Source: Streptomyces sp. RKND-216 (GTDB taxonomy: Bacteria > Actinomycetota > Actinomycetes > Streptomycetales > Streptomycetaceae). From it: DNA of 64,000 nt. A program made the translations under genes and the position numbers. Below are positions 3,058-38,500 of this stretch, piece after piece (the first letter of the stretch is position 1; each line of letters opens with the position of its first letter). The stretch is from contig NZ_SSBQ01000002.1 of the NCBI RefSeq assembly GCF_004795255.1, forward strand, positions 291,001 through 355,000, written 5' to 3'. Below the pieces are notes generated by a model that was given only the letters and a program-made list of their open reading frames with translations, searched no databases and had not been told where the DNA came from.

Positions 3058-3861
3058 TCACAGCCGGGTACGCAGTTCCCACAGCTCGGGGAAGAACCGC
3101 TTCTCCAGGGTCGAGCGCAGATACTGCGCACCGCTGGACCCTCCTGTCCCGGCCTTCGCGCCGATGACGCGTTCCACCATCAGTACGTGCCGGGCTCGCC
3201 ACGTGCTGAAGAGTTCGTCGTGGTCCAGCAGCGCCTCGGCCACGGCGAGCACGTCGGAGGCCGGTGTCTCGGCCCGCAACAGCTCCGTGAGGTCGGGCTC
3301 CCCGCGCTTCTCGCACAGCGTCAGGAATGCCTCGTACAAGGTCGGTTCGGCCATGCGGCGACGGAGCCGGGTGCGCTCGGCGGCGTCGAGGTCGCCTCGC
3401 TCCACGTACCGGCTGTCCTTGAGCCCGGAAAGGAACTCGATCTCCCTGAACTGCACCGACTGGATACCACTCGCCTGGTACAGCGACGGCCGAAGCAACG
3501 CGAAGCTACCCGGGCTGATCGTCCGGAGCACGTCGACCTGCCCCGCGAGCACCCGCTCGATGACGCCGACTCGCCGCAGCGAGTACAGCGCATCTGGAGC
3601 GTCGTCGGCGAACAGCGCGTCGCGGGTGCGCTCCAGCTCGTCCAGCACGATCTTGAACCACAGTTCGTACACCATGTGCGCGACGTAGAAGAGTTCCTCG
3701 TCGTGCAGGTCGGTGTACCTCGGCGGAAGCCCGAGGAGGTCGTCCAGGCGCAGCAGGTCTCCGTAGGACGGGCTGCTCCCGTCCTCAGCCGGGGTCCGGC
3801 CCGCCACCGGGCACCTGCTGGGCGAGTCCACGGTCTCCGGGCCGGCGTTCGAGCCGTTCAT
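3058..3861 (-). CDS. Tryptophan 2,3-dioxygenase
   Basis: Heme dioxygenase converting L-tryptophan to N-formylkynurenine. 267 residues, as usual for the family. YGDLLRLDDLL begins near residue 33. HDEELFYVAHMVYELWFK (53-70) holds the distal His62, in the context HM rather than the common HQ. SGIQSVQFREIE has the carboxylate-binding Arg139. RARHVLMVERVIG gives the likely axial heme His225, and GTGGSSG (238-244) is intact. Kynurenine formamidase and kynureninase are not adjacent. Next to a FAAL and a methyltransferase it more likely supplies kynurenine or an anthranilate-type unit to a metabolite than feeds general catabolism. That pathway role is inference. Confidence 0.93.
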   Translation of the reverse strand: MNGSNAGPETVDSPSRCPVAGRTPAEDGSSPSYGDLLRLDDLLGLPPRYTDLHDEELFYVAHMVYELWFKIVLDELERTRDALFADDAPDALYSLRRVGVIERVLAGQVDVLRTISPGSFALLRPSLYQASGIQSVQFREIEFLSGLKDSRYVERGDLDAAERTRLRRRMAEPTLYEAFLTLCEKRGEPDLTELLRAETPASDVLAVAEALLDHDELFSTWRARHVLMVERVIGAKAGTGGSSGAQYLRSTLEKRFFPELWELRTRL

Positions 3862-4159
3862 CGACGCTCCTTCGCTGGTCTCTCCGAGTTCGGCGAACGG
3901 CTCTCAGCATCGGAGCGCTACCGGCCCGGGGACAACCGCCTCCCGCCCGGTCGGGCGACCTGCCCGGATGACCACCCCGTCCCGCTCCGGCACCCGGGCA
4001 GCGGGGCGCCCCGCACGGCGGGGCCTTCCCAGGTCCGTCGAACGCGAGGGCCGGCGCACGTGCGTTCCTGCGCCCGCAGTTCTCGTCCGACGCCCGCCCG
4101 GCTCTGCCGGGGAACACCGGCGAGCGCAGATTGTCCGGAGCACGAGGGAGAGGATCGTC

Positions 4160-5110
4160 ATGCATGGTTACGACAAGCCTTCACGGGCCGCGTCCCCGGC
4201 GTCGCTCCTGGGAGCGATACCCCGCCCGCGGTCGGAGCCGCCCCGGAAGCCGACGCGGCCGAGGAGCACCTGCGGCTCTGGTGCACGCGGCCTGCGGGTG
4301 TGCGTGGTGCATCCGCACGAGGTGGTGCGGTGCGGGCTCGAGGCGATGCTCACCGATGTCGCCCTTGACGTCACCGTGCTCACGGACACCTTCCGGGCCG
4401 GACACCGGCTCGTCGCGGAGGGGGTCGATGTGCTCATCTGCCCGTGCGCGGCGACCGAGGAGGTCCTGGACTTGGCGTCGGCCTGCCGTGAACGCCGGAC
4501 TCTGGTGCTCGCGCTGCTGGAGAGCTCGGACGAACAGCAGCTGGCGCTCGCGTCGGAGGTGCCGGCCGACGGTTTCCTCCTCGCCGACGAACTGAGCGTC
4601 CCTGCCCTCGGTGACGCGCTGCGTCGCCTCGAAGGTGGTGAGATGCCGCTGCCGGTGACGCTGTCCCGGTGGCTGCTGGGCCGCATGCGAGAGGGTTCGG
4701 TCGCGTCACCCCGCGCGGAGCGCCCGTATTTCCTCACGCCGCGCGAGCGGGAGGCCCTGAACCTTCTCGCCGAGGGGCTCAGCAACAAGCAGATAGCCCG
4801 AGCACTGCGCATCTCGCCGCACGGGGCGAAGCGGCACGTCGCCAACGTCATCGCCAAGCTCAACTGCCCCAATCGGACACTGGCGGTGGCCCTCGCGCTC
4901 CGCGACGGACTGGTCGACGGGCCGGGCTCCAACCGCCGCGGTCCGGAGTCCACCCTCGAGCAGGGGACACGACCTGCGGCTACCTGCTCGGCTCCCTCGC
5001 GTGAAGCGGCTGTCGATCACGGCTCCGGAGCGGCGATCGTGCCGGCCGCGACGCGCGGGTCCCACCCGCGCCCACCACGTTCGGGAAAGCCCTCAGCGAC
5101 GGAGCCCTAG
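4160..5110 (+). CDS. NarL/LuxR-type regulator with degenerate receiver-like domain
   Basis: 316 residues from ATG 4160, chosen because GAGGGAGAGG sits just upstream. Longer in-frame starts back to 3968 give only Arg/Pro-rich sequence. The middle (about residues 50-165) has receiver-like strands such as RVCVVHPHEVVRCGLEAML, but no clear phospho-acceptor Asp pocket, so it may not be phosphorylated. The C-terminal LuxR helix-turn-helix is complete: LTPREREALNLLAEG, LSNKQIARALRISPHGAKRHV, ANVIAKLNC. A Ser/Pro/Arg-rich tail of about 60 residues follows. It is divergent from tryptophan dioxygenase. Likely a cluster-situated activator with no partner kinase nearby. Confidence 0.85.
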   Translation: MHGYDKPSRAASPASLLGAIPRPRSEPPRKPTRPRSTCGSGARGLRVCVVHPHEVVRCGLEAMLTDVALDVTVLTDTFRAGHRLVAEGVDVLICPCAATEEVLDLASACRERRTLVLALLESSDEQQLALASEVPADGFLLADELSVPALGDALRRLEGGEMPLPVTLSRWLLGRMREGSVASPRAERPYFLTPREREALNLLAEGLSNKQIARALRISPHGAKRHVANVIAKLNCPNRTLAVALALRDGLVDGPGSNRRGPESTLEQGTRPAATCSAPSREAAVDHGSGAAIVPAATRGSHPRPPRSGKPSATEP

Positions 5111-5384
5111 CACGCAGAGGGTCGTGAGGGCCCACGTCCGTCCTCGGCGGACTCGAGGGCGGTCAGCAGCGCTGCGTCGACCCGCAGTGCGGACTCCTTC
5201 CCGGCCGCGGCGTGCGGCGAAGGCTCCGCAAGCGTGCCGCGGGACGTGGGCAGGAGCGGATCGCGGCGGCGCCCGGACGCGGCGGGTCGGCCGGTGGGCG
5301 TCACCGAACCGTAAGGGCAGGGCTTCGTCCACGCCCGGGGGATCGATCTAGTCTGGTGTGCATTCCCTCTCCCCAGGAGTCGCC

Positions 5385-5975
5385 ATGCGCGCCCGCACAG
5401 CCCTTCCGGCCTCCGTCGCCGCCGTCCTGCTCGCCCTGACCGGGTGCGGCTCGAGCGGCTCCGGCACCGCCGACGATGCGGGCACGGTCTCCCCGTCGGC
5501 GTCGTCCTCCCCCGCCGGGCAGCCCGCGGACCCCGAGGGGAGCGGCACGGAAACCGGCGGTTCCGAGGTGCCCGAGGTGCTCGACTTCACCGCGACCACC
5601 GTGGACGGCAGGCCCTTCGACGCCACGACGCTCGCCGGCAAGCCGACCGTGCTGTGGTTCTGGGCTCCGTGGTGCCCCAAGTGCAAGGCCCAGGCGGCCG
5701 AGACGGCCGAGGTCGCCGCCGACCACCGGGACGAGGTCAACGTCGTGGGAGTCGCCGGTCTCGACTCCAACACGGCGATGAAGGGCTTCGTCACCGACAC
5801 AGGCACCGGATCGTTCCCGCACCTGTCCGACGAGAAGGGCGAGGTGTGGAAGCGGTTCGGCGTCACCGAGCAGAGCCGTTACGTCCTGCTCGACGAGACC
5901 GGCGAGACCGTCTACGAAGGTGTCCTGCCGGGTGGCGAGGGACTGGCCGGCAAGGTCGCCGGGCTCACCGGCTGA
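5385..5975 (+). CDS. TlpA/ResA-like thioredoxin-fold lipoprotein
   Basis: 196 residues from ATG 5385, with AGGAGT five bases upstream; an in-frame ATG at 5358 lacks a ribosome site. A lipoprotein signal ends at LTGC, so the mature protein is probably anchored outside the membrane. After a Ser/Gly/Pro linker comes a thioredoxin fold with WFWAPWCPKCKAQ, giving the redox CxxC (CPKC). It is 12 bases upstream of a CcdA-like gene, the classic reductant-relay pair: CcdA moves electrons from cytoplasmic thioredoxin to this extracytoplasmic thiol protein, which reduces disulfides in cytochrome c or other exported proteins. No cytochrome genes are adjacent, so the client is unknown. Confidence 0.9.
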   Translation: MRARTALPASVAAVLLALTGCGSSGSGTADDAGTVSPSASSSPAGQPADPEGSGTETGGSEVPEVLDFTATTVDGRPFDATTLAGKPTVLWFWAPWCPKCKAQAAETAEVAADHRDEVNVVGVAGLDSNTAMKGFVTDTGTGSFPHLSDEKGEVWKRFGVTEQSRYVLLDETGETVYEGVLPGGEGLAGKVAGLTG

Positions 5976-17394: not shown

Positions 17395-18759
17395 GTGACC
17401 GTGTCGATCGCCCTGTTCACCGCCGATCTCCGGGTCCACGACAACCCCGCGCTGCGGGCCGCCCTGGACGGCGCCGACGAGACGGTGCCCCTGTTCGTGC
17501 TCGACGATGCCGTGCGCGCGGCCGGGTTCGACGCCCCCAACCGCCGGGCGTTCCTCGCCGACTGCCTCGCCTCCCTCGACGAGGCCCTGAGGAAACGCGG
17601 CGGCCGCCTGGTGGTGCGCCGGGGCGACGTGGTCGGCGAGGTGTGCCGGCTCGCGCGGCAGACGGAGGCCCGGGACGTACACGTGGCAGCGGACGTGAGC
17701 GGCTTCGCGCACCGGAGGGAGGACCGGCTGCGCGCGGAGCTGGAGTCCGACGGACGCCGCCTGCACGTGCACGACGCGGTGACCACGGTCCTGGCACCCG
17801 GCGAGGTGGTCCCGGCGGACCGCGACCACTTCGCGGTCTTCACGCCCTACTTCCGCCGCTGGGAGACCGTCACGCCGCGCAGACCGCTGGGCGCGCCGCG
17901 CCGAGTGCGGGTCCCGGACGGCGCGCCGGAAGGGGAGCTCCCGGCCCGGTCCGCGGTCTCCGGTGTCTCGCCGGGGCTGGCCCGCGGCGGTGAGCAGGAG
18001 GGCCGGCGACGGTTCGCGACGTGGCTCTCCGACGGCGTCGACGCGTACGAGGACCGGCACGACGACCTGGTCGGCGACGCCACCTCACGGCTCTCCCCGC
18101 ACCTGCACTTCGGCACCCTCTCCCCCACCGAACTGGTGCACCGGGCCAGGGAACGCGGCGGTGCGGGCGCGGACGCGTTCGTGCGGCAGATCTGCTGGCG
18201 GGACTTCCACCACCAGGTGCTCGCCGCCCGGCCGCAGGCGGCCCGCCAGGACTACCGCACCCGTCACGACGGGTGGCGCCGGGACGACCAAGCCGCCGAC
18301 GCCTGGCGGGAGGGCCGCACCGGCTACCCCGTGGTGGACGCGGCGATGCGGCAGCTCGCCCACGAGGGCTGGATGCACAACCGCGGGCGGCTGCTGGCCG
18401 GCAGCTTCCTCACCAAGACGCTGTACGTCGACTGGCGGGTCGGCGCCCGCCACTTCCTGGAGCTGCTGGTGGACGGTGACATGGCCAACAACCAGCTCAA
18501 CTGGCAGTGGGTGGCCGGCACCGGCACGGACACCCGGCCCAACCGGGTGCTCAACCCGCTGACGCAGGCCAAACGGTTCGACCCCGACGGCGCGTACGTG
18601 CGGCGCTGGGTGCCGGAGCTGGCGGACGTGGACGGCGGCGCCGTGCACACGCCGTGGAAGCTGGCCGCCCTCGATCGGGCCGGGATCGACTACCCGGACC
18701 CGGTCGTCGATCTCGGCGAGGGCCTGGACCGCTTCCTGCGGGCACGCGGAGTCCGGTGA
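17395..18759 (+). CDS. Deoxyribodipyrimidine photolyase (class I CPD-type)
   Basis: 454 residues from GTG 17395 (GGAGTG upstream). Repairs cyclobutane pyrimidine dimers with blue light. The N-terminal antenna domain has LFTADLRVHDNPALRAAL. The C-terminal FAD domain has LSPHLHFGTLSPTEL, FVRQICWRDFHHQ, GRTGYPVVDAAMRQL, MHNRGRLLAGSFLTK and NQLNWQWVAGTGTDT, which form the FAD pocket and DNA-binding surface. Electron-transfer Trp residues are in the expected places. First of three same-strand genes with an FAD oxidoreductase and a second, FeS-type photolyase, suggesting a light-protection group. No LitR/LitS-type light regulator is seen in the window. Confidence 0.95.
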   Translation: MTVSIALFTADLRVHDNPALRAALDGADETVPLFVLDDAVRAAGFDAPNRRAFLADCLASLDEALRKRGGRLVVRRGDVVGEVCRLARQTEARDVHVAADVSGFAHRREDRLRAELESDGRRLHVHDAVTTVLAPGEVVPADRDHFAVFTPYFRRWETVTPRRPLGAPRRVRVPDGAPEGELPARSAVSGVSPGLARGGEQEGRRRFATWLSDGVDAYEDRHDDLVGDATSRLSPHLHFGTLSPTELVHRARERGGAGADAFVRQICWRDFHHQVLAARPQAARQDYRTRHDGWRRDDQAADAWREGRTGYPVVDAAMRQLAHEGWMHNRGRLLAGSFLTKTLYVDWRVGARHFLELLVDGDMANNQLNWQWVAGTGTDTRPNRVLNPLTQAKRFDPDGAYVRRWVPELADVDGGAVHTPWKLAALDRAGIDYPDPVVDLGEGLDRFLRARGVR

Positions 18760-28278: not shown

Positions 28279-28488
28279 GTTCTCGTTCGCTCCATCGTCG
28301 CCCCGTGCGACGGCCGTCTGCCGTCGTGTTCGGCTGTACACCGTAGCCGCTGCCGCATCGTGCGCCCGACGCGGCGTCGCACATGATCACCGCCCGCAGT
28401 TGCGCAGGTGGCCGCCCCGGCCCGGCGCGGCCGTGTGCGGGCCGACCGGCCCCGGGGCACAGTGGAGGGGCACACCGGGAGGTGGACG

Positions 28489-29511
28489 ATGGGCCGTACC
28501 GGCCTGCTGGAGTTGCTGCCGGCCGACCAGCGGCGGCTGCTGGCGCCGCTGGCGGACGGCGTACCGCCCGCCGCTCCCATGCTGGCGCGGCCGAGCGATC
28601 GCCGCGACTTCGGCGCGGGATGGATCTTCGAGCGGAAGCTGGACGGAGTGCGGGCCCTCGCGGTGCGCGAGCGCGGCCGTGTGCGGCTGCTGTCCCGCAC
28701 CGGCCAGGTGATGAACCGTACGTACCCGGAGCTGGTGGACGTCCTGGAAGAGCAGGACTGCGAGGACTTCAGCGTCGACGGCGAGATCGTCGCGTTCACC
28801 GGTCGGCGAACGGACTTCGCTCGGCTGCAGCGGCGCATGCAGATCAGCGACCCACGGCGTGCCCGTGCGACCGGTGTCGAGGTGACGTACTGCCTGTTCG
28901 ACCTTCTGGCGCTGGACGGCGTGCGCACCACCGGGCTGCCGCTGCGCGCGCGGAAGGCGCTGCTGCGACGGGCTTTCGTCTTCGGGCCGCCGCTGCGGCA
29001 GACACCGCACCGCAACGCGGGCGGGCAGGAGCTGCTGGACCGGGCGTGCGGCTGGGGCTGGGAAGGGCTTGTCGCCAAGCGCGCGCAGGGCCGCTACCAG
29101 ACGGGTCGACGGTCGCCGGACTGGCTGAAGCTGAAGTGCAGCAGGGGCCAGGAGTTCGTGGTGGGCGGATTCACCGAGCCGTCGGGCGGTCGTGTCGGCT
29201 TCGGCGCGCTGCTGCTGGGCTACCACGCGGACGGACGGCTGCGCTACGCCGGGAAGGTCGGCACCGGCTGGGACCGGGCGGCACTGGCATCGCTGCGGGC
29301 GCGGCTGGACGGTCTGACTCGTTCGCGTTCGCCGTTCGCCGACGCGGTGGGCGAGCGCGGGGCGCACTGGGTGGAGCCGGAGCTGGTCGCTCAGGTGGCG
29401 TTCACGGAGTGGACACGGGACGGGATGCTGCGGCACCCGCGGTTCGTCGGTCTGCGCGCCGACAAGAACCCGTCCGAGGTGGTGCGCGAGGAGCCGGGCC
29501 CCTCCCGCTGA
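28489..29511 (+). CDS. ATP-dependent DNA ligase (LigD/LigC type)
   Basis: 340 residues from ATG 28489 (GGGAGGTGG upstream). The nucleotidyl-lysine motif I is FERKLDGVRALAV, with Lys50 the adenylation site. Later motifs: VDGEIVAF (III), CLFDLLALDG (IIIa), GLVAKRAQGRYQTG (IV), SPDWLKLKC (V). A C-terminal OB fold has VGGFTEPSGGRVGFGALLLG. Size and motifs match the ligase module of bacterial non-homologous end joining or LigC. A second, distinct ligase lies at 41.5 kb. No Ku gene is in the window. Confidence 0.92.
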   Translation: MGRTGLLELLPADQRRLLAPLADGVPPAAPMLARPSDRRDFGAGWIFERKLDGVRALAVRERGRVRLLSRTGQVMNRTYPELVDVLEEQDCEDFSVDGEIVAFTGRRTDFARLQRRMQISDPRRARATGVEVTYCLFDLLALDGVRTTGLPLRARKALLRRAFVFGPPLRQTPHRNAGGQELLDRACGWGWEGLVAKRAQGRYQTGRRSPDWLKLKCSRGQEFVVGGFTEPSGGRVGFGALLLGYHADGRLRYAGKVGTGWDRAALASLRARLDGLTRSRSPFADAVGERGAHWVEPELVAQVAFTEWTRDGMLRHPRFVGLRADKNPSEVVREEPGPSR

Positions 29512-30030: not shown

Positions 30031-30068
30031 CCGTGGGCGGGAGCCGGTTTTCCGGCTCCCGCCCACGG
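30031..30068. terminator. Perfect 17-bp hairpin overlapping a promoter
   Basis: Arms 30031-30047 and 30052-30068 are exact reverse complements with a TTTT loop. It should terminate the upstream transcript. It ends 13 bases before the F420-oxidoreductase ATG, and its loop and right arm form most of a sigma-B-like promoter. Confidence 0.8.
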
Positions 30069-30072
30069 TTAC
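30047..30072 (+). promoter_or_regulatory. Sigma-B-like promoter GTTT-N16-GGTTAC
   Basis: GTTT 30047-30050 spans the hairpin loop; GGTTAC 30067-30072 follows after 16 bases, one mismatch to GGGTAC. Nine bases separate it from ATG 30082, implying a leaderless message for the operon that follows, which has no ribosome site. Confidence 0.45.
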
Positions 30073-30081
30073 CCGGCTGCC

Positions 30082-31071
30082 ATGAGTGAGGCGAGCGCGC
30101 CGGCGCGCGACATGACGTACGGCTACTTCCTTGCCTGCGAGGACCACGGGCCGCGGGAGCTGCTGGAACAGGCCAGAATGGCCGAGCAGGCCGGGTTCAC
30201 CTCACTGTGGATCTCCGACCACTTCCACCCGTGGACCGACGTGCAGGGCCACTCCCCCTTCGTCTGGTCGGTGATCGGCGCACTGGCCGAGGTCACCTCG
30301 CTGCCCGTGCAGACGGCAGTCACCTGCCCCACCGTGCGCACCCATCCGGTGGTGGTGGCGCAGGCGGCGGCCACGTCGGCCGTGCTGCTGGGAGAGCACC
30401 GCTTCCGGCTCGGCGTCGGCAGCGGTGAGGCGCTGAACGAGCACGTGCTGGGAACGGTGTGGCCGGAGGCGTCGGTCCGACTGGAGATGCTGGAGGAGGC
30501 CGTCGGCGTCATCCGGCAGCTCATGACCGGCACGCAGGTCAGCCACTACGGCAAGCACTACACGGTGGAGAACGCCCGTCTGTACGACGTGCCGGAGCAG
30601 GCCGTACCGATCGACGTGTCCGCGTTCGGGCCGGCGGCGGAGGAGCTGGCAATGCGGATCGGCGACGGCTTCATCACCATGGAGCCCGACGCGGAGGCCG
30701 TGGCACGCTTCCGCCGGGGCGGCGGCGGACAGAAGACGGCCGTCGGCGGCACCAAGGTCTGCTACGACACCGACCGCGACCGTGCCGCCGCCACCGTGCG
30801 GGAACGGTGGGCGAACATGTTCCTGCCCGGCGAACTGGGGCAGGTGCTGCCCACCCCGGCACACTTCGCGCAGGCCGGGCAGCTCGTCACCGAGGCACAG
30901 GTACGCGATTCGGGAATGCCACTCGGCGACGACCCGGACGAGCACGTGCGGGCGCTCGCCGCCTACCGGGACGCCGGCTTCGGGGCGGTGCACGTGAACC
31001 AGATCGGTCACGACCTGCGCGGCTTCTTCGACTTCTACCGCACCAAGGTGCTCCCGCGGCTCGCGGAGTAG
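30082..31071 (+). CDS. F420-dependent LLM-class oxidoreductase (G6PD-like subfamily)
   Basis: 329 residues. TIM-barrel of the luciferase-like family: YGYFLACEDHGPRELLEQAR at strand 1, then TSLWISDHFHPW with the F420-pocket His, VQTAVTCPTVRTHPVVVAQ and LGVGSGEALNEHVLG. Length and motifs fit the TIGR03557-like branch related to F420-dependent glucose-6-phosphate dehydrogenase; hydride exchange with coenzyme F420 is expected. It is first of three tightly packed genes, with the YbdK-type ligase three bases downstream. Substrate unknown. Confidence 0.9.
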   Translation: MSEASAPARDMTYGYFLACEDHGPRELLEQARMAEQAGFTSLWISDHFHPWTDVQGHSPFVWSVIGALAEVTSLPVQTAVTCPTVRTHPVVVAQAAATSAVLLGEHRFRLGVGSGEALNEHVLGTVWPEASVRLEMLEEAVGVIRQLMTGTQVSHYGKHYTVENARLYDVPEQAVPIDVSAFGPAAEELAMRIGDGFITMEPDAEAVARFRRGGGGQKTAVGGTKVCYDTDRDRAAATVRERWANMFLPGELGQVLPTPAHFAQAGQLVTEAQVRDSGMPLGDDPDEHVRALAAYRDAGFGAVHVNQIGHDLRGFFDFYRTKVLPRLAE

Positions 31072-31074
31072 GCC

Positions 31075-32301
31075 GTGACGGCGACCCCGACCCCCGTGCG
31101 CACCCTCGGCGTGGAAGAGGAGTTCCTCCTCGTCCACCCCGCCGACGGAACGCCCGTGCCGTACGCCGGCCGGGTGCTGGAGCGCGCGGAGCAGGACCGC
31201 GCGGCGGACGACCGCACCGTCTACAAGCCGGAACTGCTGACCAGCCAGGTCGAGGGGGCGTCCGGGGTCTGCACCGGACTCGCCGAACTGGGCGTCCAGT
31301 TGGCCAACGGGCGCCGGGCGCTGGCCGGAGCGGCGCACGCCAGCGGTGCGCTGCTGCTGCCGTCGGCCACTCCACCGCTCTCCACCGGCCGGGTGCCGAC
31401 GACGCGGGGCGAGCGTTTCGAACAGATCACCGCGCTCTACGCCGACGTGGTGGCCGACTACCAGGTGTGCGGCTGCCACGTGCACGTGGGAATCCCGGAC
31501 CGCGACACGGCGGTGGCCGTGGTGAACCACCTGCGTCCCTGGCTGCCCACCCTGCTCGCGCTATCCGTGAACTCCCCCTACCGCTACGGGCGGGACACCG
31601 GCTACGCGAGTCGGCGCATGCTGGAGCAGCGGGCCTTCCCCGGCTCCGGGGTGCCGCCGGTGTTCCCGTCGGCGGCCGCGCAGGAGGCGGAGGTCGCGCG
31701 CCTGGTCGACTGCGGAGTGCTGGCCGACCCGCAGATGACTTTCTGGCTCGCCCGGCCCTCGCTGCGATTCCCCACCGTCGAGTTCCGCACGGCCGACGCG
31801 GCGGCCACCGTCGACGAGGCGCTGCTCCAGGCCGCGTTGTCGCGCGCACTGGTGCACACCGCGCTGGACGACCTCACGGCGGGCCGCGAAGCCGGCCGGC
31901 CGACGGCCGGCGAACACGCGGTCGGTGAGCAGGTCGCGGCGGCCGCGGTGTGGTCGGCGGCCCGGTACGGCCTGCGCGGCCCGGCCGTGGACCCGTGGCG
32001 GGGGATCCCGGTGCCCGCCACGTCGATGGTGCGGACGCTGCTGCGCCGGACACGGCCCGCCCTGGAGGCGGCCGGCGATCTGGGCCTCGTGCAGGAGGTC
32101 CTGGCCCGGCTGGCGGCCGTCGGTACGGGAGCCGAGCGGCAGCGGGCGGCTGGCCCGGACGACCCGGCCGCGGCCGTGCGCGCGCTGGCCGCGGACGCTC
32201 TGCGTCCGGCCGCGGGCGCGCCGTCACCCGCAGACGACCAGGACACCGACCCGTCCGCGCCCGCCCCGGTGGGTGCACGGGGAGAGGAGCACCCGCCATG
32301 A
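31075..32301 (+). CDS. YbdK-type carboxylate-amine ligase (GCS2 family)
   Basis: 408 residues from GTG 31075. Glutamate-cysteine-ligase-2 fold: RTLGVEEEFLLVHP opens the ATP/Mg site, CGCHVHVGIPD holds metal ligands, LSVNSPYRYGRDTGYASRR binds the acid substrate. YbdK proteins join a carboxylate to an amine using ATP; E. coli YbdK has weak gamma-glutamylcysteine activity. The C-terminal 30 residues are Asp/Pro-rich. Three bases after the F420 oxidoreductase and overlapping the next gene by ATGA. This packing suggests the three enzymes act on one molecule, possibly a glutamyl or cysteinyl amide. Confidence 0.9.
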   Translation: MTATPTPVRTLGVEEEFLLVHPADGTPVPYAGRVLERAEQDRAADDRTVYKPELLTSQVEGASGVCTGLAELGVQLANGRRALAGAAHASGALLLPSATPPLSTGRVPTTRGERFEQITALYADVVADYQVCGCHVHVGIPDRDTAVAVVNHLRPWLPTLLALSVNSPYRYGRDTGYASRRMLEQRAFPGSGVPPVFPSAAAQEAEVARLVDCGVLADPQMTFWLARPSLRFPTVEFRTADAAATVDEALLQAALSRALVHTALDDLTAGREAGRPTAGEHAVGEQVAAAAVWSAARYGLRGPAVDPWRGIPVPATSMVRTLLRRTRPALEAAGDLGLVQEVLARLAAVGTGAERQRAAGPDDPAAAVRALAADALRPAAGAPSPADDQDTDPSAPAPVGARGEEHPP

Positions 32302-33362
32302 CGGCCACCTCGAGGACGGGAGCGAGCACCGCGAACGGCACGGCAGGAGCGCGGAGCCGGCGGGACGGCCCGGCCGGTCTGCCGGACCCGCGCGGCCCGC
32401 TGTCGGACGCCGTCCTGGCGGCGCTGCGGCAGCCACCGGGCACGGTGCGCCACTGGCCCTCTCCCACCGGCGCGGACACCGACCCGTTCGGCGAAGACCT
32501 GCACCTGGCCCTGCAGACGGCGTACGAACTGCACTACCGCGGTTGGCGGGGTGTGGACGACGGCTGGGAATGGGACGCCGGCCTGCTGGGCTTCCGGGCC
32601 CGCCTGGAGCGCCTCTTCCTGGACGCGCTGCGCGGTCGCGCCGCGGGCGGCGAGGACGCGGCCGCGATCGATGCCGAGCTGGACGCCCTGCTGGTGGAGC
32701 CGCTGCACGGCTCCGGCGTCTCGCACCACCTCGCGGAGCACGGCACCTGGACGCAGATGCGGGAGTTCTTGGTGCACCGCTCCATCTACCATCTGAAGGA
32801 AGCCGACCCGCACGCCTGGGCCGTGCCTCGGCTGGAGGGCCGTGCCAAAGCCGGCCTGGTCGCCGTGGAGTTCGACGAGTTCGGCGGCGGGCGCGGCGAC
32901 CGGATGCACTCCCGCCTCTACGCGGACCTGATGGCCGGTGCCGGGCTGGACGACGGCTACCTGCACTATCTGCACGCGGTGCCCGCGCAGGCACTCGCGG
33001 TGGTCAACATGATGTCGCTGTTCGGGCTGCACCGCGGTCTGCGCGGTGCCCTGGTGGGGCACTTCGCCACGGCCGAGATCACCACGGCGCCGAGCGCCCG
33101 CCGCATGGTGCGGGCCCTGGATCGGATGGGTGCCGCGCCCGCCTGCGTGCACTTCTACGCCGAGCACATCGAGGCGGACGCGGTGCACGAGCAGGTGATG
33201 CGACACGAGGTGGTGGCGGACCTGCTGGCCCGTGAGCCGTCGCTGGCCGGTGGCCTGGTACTCGGCATGCAGGCGACGGCGCTGGTGGAGGACGACCTGG
33301 CGGCGCATCTGCTGTGCGCGTGGGAACGCGGCGCGTCGTCGCTGCGCCGGCCTCCGGGGTGA
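32298..33362 (+). CDS. Iron-containing redox enzyme (heme-oxygenase-like diiron oxidase)
   Basis: 354 residues from ATG 32298, overlapping the YbdK stop. All-helical HDO fold. Iron-ligand motifs are clear: EFDEFGGGRGDRMHSRLY matches the E-x-YGxG-x5-H-x2-L pattern, and HFYAEHIEADAVHEQVM matches the downstream HIExDxxH pattern. REFLVHRSIYHLKEADPHAW precedes them. Characterised HDOs (UndA, SznF, FlcE) perform oxidative C-C or N-oxygenation chemistry on amino acids or fatty acids. Here it ends an operon with a ligase and an F420 enzyme, and converges 11 bases away on a CDGSH gene. Confidence 0.88.
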   Translation: MTATSRTGASTANGTAGARSRRDGPAGLPDPRGPLSDAVLAALRQPPGTVRHWPSPTGADTDPFGEDLHLALQTAYELHYRGWRGVDDGWEWDAGLLGFRARLERLFLDALRGRAAGGEDAAAIDAELDALLVEPLHGSGVSHHLAEHGTWTQMREFLVHRSIYHLKEADPHAWAVPRLEGRAKAGLVAVEFDEFGGGRGDRMHSRLYADLMAGAGLDDGYLHYLHAVPAQALAVVNMMSLFGLHRGLRGALVGHFATAEITTAPSARRMVRALDRMGAAPACVHFYAEHIEADAVHEQVMRHEVVADLLAREPSLAGGLVLGMQATALVEDDLAAHLLCAWERGASSLRRPPG

Positions 33363-33372
33363 GACGACGCGG

Positions 33373-33702
33373 TCAGCCCCCTCCGTCCCGGCCATGCCGG
33401 GGCGCCGCCCCGCCGCGGCTGCTGCGGGCCTCCGAGGTACGCCTACGGTGGCTGGTGTCGCACCAGGGGTAGGAGCGGCTGCGGCGGCAGGCGCACACGG
33501 CGACCATGAACCGGTCGGAGCGAGCGATGCGACCGTCCGGCAGCTCGATCTCCACGGGGCCTTCGACCAGCACCGGCCCGCCGGGGTCGACGACGACCCG
33601 GCGGGCGTCCCTCCGCGAAGGCGGCGGACCGTTCTCCGGTTGCGCGGCGCCCACCCGCCGGCCGTCGGTCCCTGCCGGCTCATCCGGCGACGCGCCGGGC
33701 AC
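33373..33702 (-). CDS. CDGSH-type iron-sulfur protein
   Basis: 109 residues from GTG 33702, overlapping the upstream methyltransferase by 23 bases. The 2Fe-2S motif is CACRRSRSYPWCDTSH: three Cys and one His in mitoNEET spacing, with Thr replacing Gly in CDGSH. N-terminal 45 residues are Pro/Arg-rich; DPGGPVLVEGPVEIELPDG is the beta cap. Probably a small electron-transfer or iron-sulfur donor, here likely for the diiron oxidase encoded head-on next to it. Confidence 0.85.
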   Translation of the reverse strand: MPGASPDEPAGTDGRRVGAAQPENGPPPSRRDARRVVVDPGGPVLVEGPVEIELPDGRIARSDRFMVAVCACRRSRSYPWCDTSHRRRTSEARSSRGGAAPRHGRDGGG

Positions 33703-34336
33703 GGATCACCACCAGTTCCTCCTGCGTCTGGCCGGGGGCGATGAGGCCGCGTTCCTCCAGCCAGGAGGCACGGGAGCCGAGCACCGGGCCGAAGGGCTGC
33801 CGTCGCCGGGCGACCACCGAGGCCCCCAGACCGCCCTCGCGGAGCAGGCGCACCGTCGTCGGCAGGCTGCACAGCACGGAGTGCACCAGCAGCAGACTGC
33901 CGCCCGGGGCCAGCAACGCGGGCGCCCGGCGGCACAGCGGGTCCAGGTAGCGCCTGCCGTCGAGCCCCGCGTCCCACGCCCGCGCCCGGCCGCACGCCTC
34001 GCCCGCGTCGGCGCAGGGCACGTACGGCGGGTTCGCCGTCACCAGGTCGAACGGCCCTGCCGGAAGGCGGCGGCGCAGGTCGCCGCGTGTGACGCGGACC
34101 CGCAGACCCCGCAGAAGGGCGTTGCACCGGGCGGTCAGCACCGCGCGGTAGGAACTGTCCACCGCCCACACCCGCGACGCTCCCGTTCCGGCCGCCGCCA
34201 GCGCGAGCATGCCGGTACCCGTGCCCAGGTCCAGCACGCGCCCGCCGGCCGGTGGCGGCGCGGCGAGCAGCGCCTCTCGCAGGAGGAAGGAGTCGCCTTG
34301 GGGCCGGTAGACCCCGGGAGGCTTCAGCAAGAACAC
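33680..34336 (-). CDS. HemK2/MTQ2-like protein methyltransferase
   Basis: 218 residues from GTG 34336. Motif I is VLDLGTGTGMLALAAAG, and the catalytic NPPY motif appears in FDLVTANPPYVP, the signature of amide-N methyltransferases (HemK/PrmC) that modify glutamine in GGQ or similar sites. It lacks the N-terminal helical domain of PrmC, resembling short eukaryote/archaea-like HemK2. No ribosome site, but a sigma-B-like promoter ends nine bases before the GTG. Overlaps the CDGSH gene, so the two are co-expressed. A small-molecule amide is an alternative substrate. Confidence 0.85.
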   Translation of the reverse strand: MFLLKPPGVYRPQGDSFLLREALLAAPPPAGGRVLDLGTGTGMLALAAAGTGASRVWAVDSSYRAVLTARCNALLRGLRVRVTRGDLRRRLPAGPFDLVTANPPYVPCADAGEACGRARAWDAGLDGRRYLDPLCRRAPALLAPGGSLLLVHSVLCSLPTTVRLLREGGLGASVVARRRQPFGPVLGSRASWLEERGLIAPGQTQEELVVIRARRVAG

Positions 34337-34345
34337 CGGGATCGG

Positions 34346-34370
34346 GTACCTCCGGCTTCCCCGCCGAAAC
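34346..34370 (-). promoter_or_regulatory. Sigma-B-like promoter GTTT-N15-AGGTAC
   Basis: On the minus strand GTTT (34370-34367), 15-base spacer, AGGTAC (34351-34346), then nine bases to GTG 34336. One mismatch to GGGTAC. It sits in the 39-base gap between the epimerase and the methyltransferase. Confidence 0.5.
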
Positions 34371-35531: not shown

Positions 35532-36365
35532 TCAGCCCGCGGACGCGGGGGTGCGCTCCCTCCGGCGTTCGGCGTCGACCTTCTGGTGTATGCGTTCGCA
35601 GGTGCGGTGGATGAGCCGGGAGACGTGCATCTGGGAGATGCCCAGTTCCTCGGCGATGCGGCTCTGCGTCATGTCGCAGAAGAACCGCAGGTAGAGGATG
35701 CGGCGTTCGCGTTCCGGCAGCAGGGAGAGCTGCGGTTTCACCGCCTCGCGGTACACCACCAGGTCGAAACCCGCCTCGAAGACGCCGAGGGTGTCCTGGA
35801 GCGAGTAGCCGTCCTCCGCGGCCGACAGCTCCGCGTCCAGGGACAGGGCGCTGTAGGAGTCCAGCGCCTCCATGCCGAGGAGCACGTCCTCCTCGCTCAG
35901 CCGGCTGTGCTCGGCGATCTCGGCGACCGTCGGAGAGCGACCACCGAGAGTGAGGTTCAGCTCGCGGCGGCTGGCCCGCACCTGGGTGCGCAGCTGCTGG
36001 ACCCGCCGTGGCACGTGCAGGTCCCAGGTGTGGTCGCGGAAGTGACGCTTGATCTCGCCCACGATGGTGGGCACGGCGTAGCTCTCGAAGGCGGTGCCGC
36101 GGGCCGGGTCGTAGCCGGCGACGGCCTTGACGAGTCCCAGGGCGGCGATCTGCTGGAGGTCCTCCAGCGCCTCGCCCCGGTTGCGGTAGCGCCCGGCGAG
36201 GCGGTGGGCCATGGGGATCCAGACCTGGACGACGTCCTGCCGGAGCTCCTCCTTCTCCGGTCCGTCCGGCAGCGCGGCGATACGGACGAACGCGTCCCGG
36301 GTGTCCGGGGCGTCGTCGTGCGGGTGGCGGGCACGCTTGGTGCGGAAGGGGGTGGTGGTGCTCAT
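35532..36365 (-). CDS. SigB/SigF-subfamily RNA polymerase sigma factor
   Basis: 277 residues. Region 2 (RYRNRGEALEDLQQIAALGL; FESYAVPTIVGEIKRHFRD) and the sigma-B-type RVQQLRTQVRASR are present. Region 4 (LPERERRILYLRFF; MTQSRIAEELGISQMHVSRL) is complete. Group 3 sigma factors of this kind direct stress and differentiation genes from GTTT/GGGTA promoters and are normally held by an anti-sigma factor, but no RsbW/RsbV-like gene is adjacent. At least five GTTT-N15/16-GGGTAC-like sites lie within this window, so it may serve its own neighbourhood. Confidence 0.93.
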   Translation of the reverse strand: MSTTTPFRTKRARHPHDDAPDTRDAFVRIAALPDGPEKEELRQDVVQVWIPMAHRLAGRYRNRGEALEDLQQIAALGLVKAVAGYDPARGTAFESYAVPTIVGEIKRHFRDHTWDLHVPRRVQQLRTQVRASRRELNLTLGGRSPTVAEIAEHSRLSEEDVLLGMEALDSYSALSLDAELSAAEDGYSLQDTLGVFEAGFDLVVYREAVKPQLSLLPERERRILYLRFFCDMTQSRIAEELGISQMHVSRLIHRTCERIHQKVDAERRRERTPASAG

Positions 36366-37840: not shown

Positions 37841-38500
37841 TCAGCCGGGGAGACCGGTCACCCGGAGGGTCAGGTTGAGCCGACCGCGCTTCAGGCCCGT
37901 CGCCGGGTCCGCCGTGCCGGGCCGCACGCGGGGCACACCGTGGTACGCGAACCGCGCGGGCCCCCCGAAAACGAAGAGGTCACCCGACCCGAGTTCCACG
38001 TCGGTGTAGGGCCGCGTGCGCGTCTCCGTATTGCCGAACCGGAAGACGCAGGCGTCGCCGATGCTCAGGGAGACGACCGGGGCGTCGGAGCGTTCGTCCT
38101 TGTCCTGGTGCATGCCCATGGTGGCGCGCGCGTCGTAGAAGTTGACCAGGGCGGTGTCGGGCGCGTACGCGGCGGCCTCCTCCGGGTCGCCGTAGGCGTC
38201 GGCGAGGGCGCGGCGCCCCAGGTCGCCCAACCAGTCCGGGAAGGCCGCGACACGGCGCCCGTTCACGTCGTCGGCGGTGCGGCTGTACCGGTACGGCTGC
38301 CAGTGCCAGCCCAGGCAGACGGTCTGCACGGACATCGTGCCGCCGCGCGGCAGCCGGGTGTGGCGGAACGGCACCGGGCCGCGCGCCCAGCCCCGGCAGG
38401 CGGCGACCAGCTCCCGCTGCGCCGGCACGTCCAGCCAGCCGGGTACGTGCACCGCACCCGGCGCCACGACGGCCCGCGACCGCGGGAACAGGCTGTCCAT
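37841..38500 (-). CDS. alkB: AlkB-like 2-oxoglutarate/Fe(II) dioxygenase
   Basis: 219 residues. Removes alkyl lesions from DNA bases by oxidative demethylation. The iron triad is visible in MGMHQDKDE (HxD) and a downstream His in FAYHGVPRV. The 2-oxoglutarate Arg motif is GRLNLTLRVTG, with the AlkB RxNxTxR pattern (RLNLTLR). ALVNFYDARATMGMHQDKDE matches the canonical N-x-Y-x8-H-x-D block. Stands alone, without ada or alkA nearby. Confidence 0.93.
   Translation of the reverse strand: MDSLFPRSRAVVAPGAVHVPGWLDVPAQRELVAACRGWARGPVPFRHTRLPRGGTMSVQTVCLGWHWQPYRYSRTADDVNGRRVAAFPDWLGDLGRRALADAYGDPEEAAAYAPDTALVNFYDARATMGMHQDKDERSDAPVVSLSIGDACVFRFGNTETRTRPYTDVELGSGDLFVFGGPARFAYHGVPRVRPGTADPATGLKRGRLNLTLRVTGLPG

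Follow-up and report, generated by a model that had tools for sequence, protein, structure and literature searches.

Heme-oxygenase-like diiron proteins (HDOs) have been described chiefly from small-molecule biosynthesis, according to the accessible part of a review (PMC13108848). Among the solved members, HrmI, SznF and RohS act in natural-product pathways. MboA and MboB, an HDO encoded together with its own Fe2S2-containing redox partner, are one stated precedent for such a dedicated pairing (available sections of PMC13185094). The available text of the report on Acinetobacter DtpC states that no HDO had been tied to desiccation or oxidative stress before this one (PMC13232832). We describe here an HDO gene found in a stretch of 64,000 nucleotides from Streptomyces sp. 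RKND-216 (contig NZ_SSBQ01000002.1, positions 291,001 to 355,000 of the forward strand; hereafter the window, to which coordinates given without a locus or genome label refer). Together with genes for a CDGSH protein and a HemK2-like methyltransferase, it forms the core of a module conserved among actinobacteria. The explanation that we favor, tentatively and at somewhat less than an even chance, is a general-stress N-oxygenation module in which the CDGSH protein supplies electrons to the HDO.

The HDO gene (32298..33362, + strand; PF14518, 187.5 bits, cutoff 28.9) is the last of three genes on its strand. The first encodes an F420-dependent LLM-class oxidoreductase (30082..31071, + strand; TIGR03557, FGD-like, 451 bits, cutoff 210), and its stop is followed after 3 bases by the start of a YbdK/GCS2 carboxylate-amine ligase gene (31075..32301, + strand; TIGR02050, 224.5 bits, cutoff 176.4), the stop of which shares 4 bases with the start of HDO. 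The CDGSH gene (33373..33702, − strand; PF09360 zf-CDGSH, 58 bits, cutoff 30) converges on HDO with 10 bases between the two stops, and overlaps by 23 bases the gene of a HemK2/MTQ2-like S-adenosylmethionine-dependent methyltransferase (33680..34336, − strand; TIGR00537, 94.6 bits, cutoff 87; GVYxPQ and NPPY motifs). A preliminary description, made from the letters of this DNA, had listed the same five open reading frames with their 3-base, −4-base and overlapping junctions and the same five family labels; the coordinates agree with the former and the Pfam and NCBIfam profiles, all above cutoff, with the latter, and its spacing of 11 bases between the two operons is corrected to 10. The window YbdK also passes NF010041 (342 bits, cutoff 332), a glutamate--cysteine ligase by name, and the closest named relative of the window HDO, at 97%, belongs to Streptomyces sp. 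DSM 42041.

Which of these genes belong together was judged from the neighbors of HDO genes in three collections. In the family sample (101 genomes of the window's family, 85 of them with an HDO match at E ≤1e-3, some weak), a strong HDO match was present in 81 genomes, the own genome included; linkage was counted over 85 strong HDO loci in 80 genomes, omitting the own genome, second pieces of split genes and weak rows. A CDGSH gene lies within 3 kb of HDO at 83 of these 85 loci, a methyltransferase gene at 76, a YbdK gene at 13 or more (of these 13, 7 are 53–61% identical and in the module position) and an F420 gene at 8 or more, the last two counts being lower bounds into which 21 YbdK and 15 F420 rows entered, apparently those near HDO on the same contig. 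The second collection, 80 named loci, is the best 80 of 536 confirmed HDO loci and, being top-scoring, is biased toward the window's kin; within 6 kb of HDO, it contains CDGSH at 79 loci, the methyltransferase at 75 (convergent with HDO at 51, and downstream on the same strand at 20, many of them in Nocardia), YbdK at 40 and the F420 gene at 3. In the third, a phylum sample of 198 genomes with HDO at E ≤1e-10 in 34, CDGSH was found within 3 kb at 23 of 35 loci and the methyltransferase at 9 of them; for loci from classes other than the window's, the CDGSH count was 10 of 22. Two genomes (G009 and G052) carry the methyltransferase gene about 200 kb away and still have CDGSH adjoining HDO, indicating that CDGSH is linked to HDO more tightly than the methyltransferase is. 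The trio was found also on a Streptomyces plasmid (NZ_CP108735.1), the annotation of which names the products an iron-containing redox enzyme, a CDGSH protein and a HemK2/MTQ2 protein. By these counts HDO and CDGSH are the most widely kept pair, followed by the methyltransferase and then by YbdK, and the F420 gene is local; the module core is HDO, the CDGSH protein and the HemK2-like methyltransferase, and YbdK is a genuine fourth member restricted to some lineages. The co-occurrence of these genes across actinobacteria, on which the preliminary description had made its grouping depend, is thus found for HDO, CDGSH, the methyltransferase and often YbdK.

Three loci of other shape were noted in the same samples. 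In genome G049 (C19:72801-73536), methyltransferase and CDGSH genes occur together and the genome has no HDO match; in G074 (C4:158401-159356) and G082 (C2:8017088-8018112), the HDO match is split, by decay or assembly error, with CDGSH and methyltransferase matches alongside.

The F420 oxidoreductase had been counted in the set by the preliminary description, which proposed a pathway of five genes with F420 reduction as an integral part. In the window this gene heads the operon and carries its candidate promoter, and at two mycobacterial or mycobacteria-like loci a TIGR03557 gene with an exact SigF-type leaderless promoter lies 2–4 kb from HDO (L090, 12966-13952; L123, 10135-11121). Because a homologue was located near HDO at just 3 of the 80 named loci and, among the 85 family loci, at 8 or more, however, the gene was ruled out as a module member, and we regard the five-gene pathway as extremely improbable.

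The window HDO has the ligand residues E168, E194, H204, H290, D294 and H297, which are invariant in 26 aligned rows. This set of three histidines and three carboxylates aligns to residues E/E/H/H/D/H of SznF, which we take to be the metal ligands of that enzyme. An AlphaFold2 model (pLDDT 89, pTM 0.87) has the heme-oxygenase-like fold, and by sequence and fold, the latter from VIA-align matches of the model, the nearest solved HDOs are the N-oxygenases HrmI, SznF and RohS; VIA-align reports only chains ranked high by Foldseek, so that families missing from its list are not thereby excluded. Since the nearest solved HDOs are N-oxygenases, N-oxygenation is taken as the default chemistry, in place of the "oxidative rearrangement" of the preliminary description.

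The CDGSH protein carries a single motif, C-x-C-x2-S-x3-P-x-C-D-T-S-H in the window and C-x-C-x2-S-x3-P-x-C-D-x-S-H across the family, with C70, C72, S75, P79, C81, D82, S84 and H85 invariant in 25 rows of an alignment from which one row was left out. It thus agrees with C-x-C-x2-S/T-x3-P-x-C-D-x-S/T-H, which we take to be the definition of the single-motif type 4 CDGSH proteins. By analogy with MboB, we infer that this protein may serve as the redox partner of the HDO.

The methyltransferase family keeps the GVYxPQxDT region and the NPPY motif (27 rows, NPPY being invariant), and its nearest solved relatives are N6AMT1/HemK2 and then HemK. As these enzymes modify proteins and the TIGR00537 match is above cutoff, we considered that the HemK2-like methyltransferase and the HDO might act in turn on a Gln, Lys or Arg side chain of a protein or peptide. 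Among the recurring neighbors tested, however, there was no conserved gene for a target, in a search that did not extend to short peptides, and this reading appears improbable to us.

For YbdK, a tree was built of 52 actinobacterial proteins, omitting copies with a stop or shorter than 750 bases and without E. coli YbdK. In this tree, 41 HDO-adjacent copies and one copy located 4 kb away (L054) form one clade (99/100), and 10 other copies fall outside it; the HDO-adjacent copies therefore represent a module-specific subfamily and not random paralogues. Among the 40 YbdK copies of the named loci, 37 are upstream of HDO on its strand, and two (L071 and L086) are outside the module clade. The YbdK step of the preliminary description is consequently retained as one that is often linked (40 of the 80 named loci), but it cannot be universal, because the other half of these loci have no YbdK within 6 kb.

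The two operons of the window are preceded by promoter-like sequences of the SigB/SigF-like leaderless type. The accessible part of PMC5402319 gives the Streptomyces SigB consensus as GNNTN-N14-16-GGGTAY. The candidate site of the methyltransferase gene, GTTT-N15-AGGTAC-N9-GTG (34337..34370, − strand), has one mismatch, and its type and position are kept in orthologues; that of the F420 gene, GTTT-N16-GGTTAC-N9-ATG (30047..30081, + strand), also has one mismatch and stands outside the conservation data. These are the only 2 of 61 window genes, as called by a simple gene caller, that have such a leaderless site with ≤1 mismatch. A perfect inverted repeat on the F420 side (30031..30068, assigned to neither strand; 17-base arms, 4-base loop; RNA hairpin of −42.9 kcal/mol, z −7.6) may be the terminator of the upstream genes or an operator.

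Conservation of these sites was examined at a fixed position, 9–10 nt before an in-frame start, with ≤1 or ≤2 mismatches allowed. With ≤1 mismatch, 21 of 58 starts of methyltransferase genes had a site, as did 7 of 45 starts of HDO genes that lack a nearby YbdK and 5 of 43 starts of YbdK genes; among other genes the figure was 38 of 1184. At the methyltransferase, controls set at a wrong distance gave 1–3 of 58 and the motif in reverse gave 0/58; at HDO the latter gave 1/45. With ≤2 mismatches, 32 of 58 methyltransferase starts had a site, against 4–7 of 58 in wrong-distance controls. Where the methyltransferase start is placed after HDO, the site occurred in 1/21 (≤1 mismatch) and 9/21 (≤2). 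A strict form (GGGTAY and GNNT within 150 bases of a start) was enriched at YbdK starts (12/43) and at HDO starts without YbdK (9/45), the background of 110/1474 including the module genes, and was found at 3 of 44 HDO starts that follow YbdK. As the loci are related, p-values for promoters overstate independence. Mycobacteria-like HDO genes also have matching sites (exact at L124), and at L125 the HDO reading frame is preceded, at a distance of 43 bases, by the end of a PAS-domain gene (3627-5843) with a sub-cutoff match to RsbA anti-sigma regulators (49.5 bits, cutoff 210). With ≤1 mismatch allowed, predicted SigB/SigF-type leaderless promoters thus show conservation before methyltransferase genes and, to a lesser degree, before HDO genes, and these signatures suggest, from sequence patterns, a stress-switched expression of the module. 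The sigma-B-like promoters that the preliminary description assigned to each operon are supported by conservation on the methyltransferase side (21/58 versus 38/1184), with the reservation that each window −10 has one mismatch and that neither site has the exact pattern.

Published data on Mycobacterium smegmatis probably cover the same trio. According to the available sections of PMC4694148, MSMEG_1771 (a "methylase"), MSMEG_1772 (promoter 696 bp upstream) and MSMEG_1773 (own promoter) belong to the SigF regulon, their levels being lower by log2 4.1 to 6.4 when sigF is mutated; to the extent of these sections, sigma-factor-dependent transcription is published only for these probable counterparts. 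Their equivalence to the module is drawn from the layout, which equals that of a methyltransferase-CDGSH unit facing HDO. The quoted M. smegmatis promoter 32-mer had no match in a sample of 396 genomes from a mycobacteria-like genus, and M. smegmatis was not among the names listed in 120 rows of protein matches. The cluster around 1771-1773 is also up in bacteria cycled through spray drying, as stated in the accessible text of PMC5445863.

This last observation, together with the stress-type promoters at the module genes, bears on the main rival explanation, a protective system resembling DtpC. There, the HDO would limit peroxide or free iron in dry or oxidized cells with the CDGSH protein as a redox or iron-sulfur partner, no metabolite would be exported or stored, and the methyltransferase and YbdK would be auxiliary, in thiol or protein maintenance. 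In the available sections of PMC13232832, DtpC limits H2O2 in dried cells and loses desiccation protection when alanine is placed at the predicted ligands E143, H153 and H232, and the spacing of E143 and H153 equals that of E194 and H204 in the window HDO. Stress-type neighbors are present at some named loci (hemerythrin 11/80 and FAD-Rieske protein 11/80, both within 4.5 kb of HDO, and SigB-family sigma factors in 9 of the 80 locus stretches). However, the likeness to DtpC consists of ligand spacing and context and not of a sequence comparison, the nearest solved relatives of the HDO are N-oxygenases, and the module-specific amide ligase and the NPPY methyltransferase suggest the building of a substrate. 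We consider such a protective system rather unlikely, while giving it serious weight.

Other recurring neighbors were sought by clustering 1570 called genes from 90 loci and by searches with representative proteins within 4.5 kb of HDO at the 80 named loci. Two big unannotated clusters (46 and 30 members) might have been antisense shadows of module genes; this was rejected for the clusters as a whole, since only 20/46 and 16/30 members overlap a module gene on the opposite strand and the remainder are real genes. Within 4.5 kb at the named loci, the search for a further constant partner found no neighbor at more than 12 of 80, against 79 for CDGSH, 75 for the methyltransferase and 40 for YbdK in the wider span of 6 kb: NADPH-dependent FMN reductase and short-chain dehydrogenase at 12 each, the FAD-Rieske and hemerythrin proteins already mentioned, DUF4383 at 10, a family with no Pfam match at 9, an ATP-grasp protein at 8, zinc alcohol dehydrogenase at 7 and a 958-residue family at 6. 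These neighbors look lineage-bound, FMN reductase being chiefly of Nocardia and DUF4383 chiefly of Lentzea. The FMN reductase (PF03358; for example, L073, 9228-9842, and L050, 7662-8327) is a possible upstream electron source at its 12 loci. On the plasmid mentioned above (L120, 3095-6876), a VOC-family gene overlaps HDO, and a Rieske protein gene and gas-vesicle genes adjoin.

The surroundings of the module in the window (13018-38500) resemble a DNA-repair and stress region, with a photolyase (17395-18759), a DNA ligase of the non-homologous end-joining type (28408-29511), a 2-oxoglutarate-Fe(II) oxygenase (37841-38500) and NAD-epimerase-type proteins. A SigB/SigF/SigG-family sigma factor gene (35532..36365, − strand; TIGR02980, 271 bits, cutoff 234), 1.2 kb off, is a possible regulator of the module. 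The nearby sigma factor, ligase and photolyase genes and the lineage-specific stress-type neighbors of other loci would fit a stress island of co-regulated but functionally unrelated genes; we judge this very improbable, because the triad is kept in several orientations and on plasmid records, and no other tested neighbor approaches the counts of CDGSH and the methyltransferase.

In the general-stress N-oxygenation module that we favor, a stress signal would free a SigB/SigF-type sigma factor, and both units would then be transcribed, probably as leaderless messages. The HDO would assemble its diiron center and use O2 for the N-oxygenation of a small substrate, probably derived from an amino acid, at an amine or guanidine group, with the CDGSH [2Fe-2S] protein as its dedicated electron donor. 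The HemK2-like enzyme would methylate a nitrogen of the substrate or product, and the module-specific YbdK, where present, would form an amide with a carboxylate as the first or last step; the product would protect or signal in osmotically stressed, oxidized or dried cells. Observed in this analysis are the genes with their families, the metal-ligand residues, the fold class of the model, the conserved linkage and the conserved promoter pattern; chemistry, electron flow, order of steps, substrate, product, sigma dependence and physiological benefit are all proposals here. A more specific form, a SigB/SigF-controlled pathway widespread in soil actinobacteria, in which an HDO N-oxygenase, a CDGSH carrier, a HemK2-derived N-methyltransferase and often YbdK yield an N-oxygenated, N-methylated amino-acid conjugate protecting against drying or oxidative stress, is doubtful in its entirety.

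Several observations weigh against the favored explanation. CDGSH proteins have roles in iron handling and cluster transfer too, and 12 of 35 HDO loci in the phylum sample have no CDGSH within 3 kb. The window HDO is merely 16–21% identical to the solved N-oxygenases, and HDOs with the same ligands can catalyze different reactions (accessible part of PMC13108848). At 7 of 23 distant-lineage loci (L093, L095, L096, L099, L105, L108 and L110), a glycosyltransferase-like gene and not the methyltransferase directly follows HDO, overlapping or abutting it, and the pathway may therefore differ there; the proteins have an N-terminal SYVLPLRW-type motif and weak Pfam GT2-type matches, and the copies compared are 55–56% identical pairwise. 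Concerning the promoters, the one mismatch of both window −10s is at a G almost invariant in mapped SigB-family promoters of S. coelicolor; the available text of PMC8346170 describes the three leading G of the −10 and its A at the fifth position as almost invariant, and its table includes departing promoters such as TGGCAT and GGTAAG. The exact form GTTT-N14-17-GGGTAY-N9-RTG is absent at the window locus, its single genome-wide match lying elsewhere, and the F420-side promoter overlaps the perfect 17-base inverted repeat. The YbdK promoters are weakly enriched (p 0.015 at ≤1 mismatch, 0.08 at ≤2), and the strict form is not enriched at methyltransferase starts (3/82 versus background 110/1474). 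The loci are related, and neither linkage nor promoter counts are independent; the orthology of MSMEG_1771-1773 rests on layout, without a sequence match.

Searches of one library of open-licence PMC papers returned none in which an HDO is paired with a CDGSH protein, and no description of the full set of HDO, CDGSH, HemK2 and YbdK, in accordance with the view of the preliminary description that no system with its set had been described. HDO pathways are already known; to these, an HDO of the general stress response that has a CDGSH partner and is present in 81 of the 101 sampled family genomes would add a novel form. Should the more specific form of the proposal hold true, no earlier CDGSH protein would have had a defined oxygenase client, and no earlier HDO would have been shown in a general-stress regulon of actinobacteria. 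An HDO so widely kept, with stress-type promoters and a near-constant CDGSH neighbor, would provide bacterial CDGSH proteins with a function open to test and HDOs with a role in physiology; it would also predict a stress metabolite that is common yet unseen.

The module can finally be compared with the described systems one by one. From HrmI, SznF and RohS, the window HDO differs in its presence in most genomes of the family, its stress-type promoters, its CDGSH neighbor and its lack of a SznF-type cupin domain. The methyltransferase shares the NPPY motif and a family model with N6AMT1/HemK2, but it is bacterial, and its gene is linked to those for an HDO and for a CDGSH protein. The ligase is of the same family as E. 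coli YbdK (PDB 1r8g; overall sequence similarity, E 6e-22), whereas in the tree of 52 actinobacterial proteins the module copies fall into a separate clade. With DtpC, the HDO shares the spacing of two predicted ligands and a stress context; DtpC is, unlike the window HDO, co-transcribed with katE (available sections of PMC13232832). MSMEG_1771-1773 resemble the module as a methylase-led unit with a separately promoted neighbor and SigF-type promoters, and are described in the accessible part of PMC4694148 merely as methylase or conserved hypothetical proteins. MboA and MboB resemble it in having an HDO encoded with its own Fe2S2-containing partner; MboB, however, is an NAD(P)H-flavin-Fe2S2 reductase (available sections of PMC13185094), whereas the candidate partner in the window, a small CDGSH protein, would require a reductase of its own.

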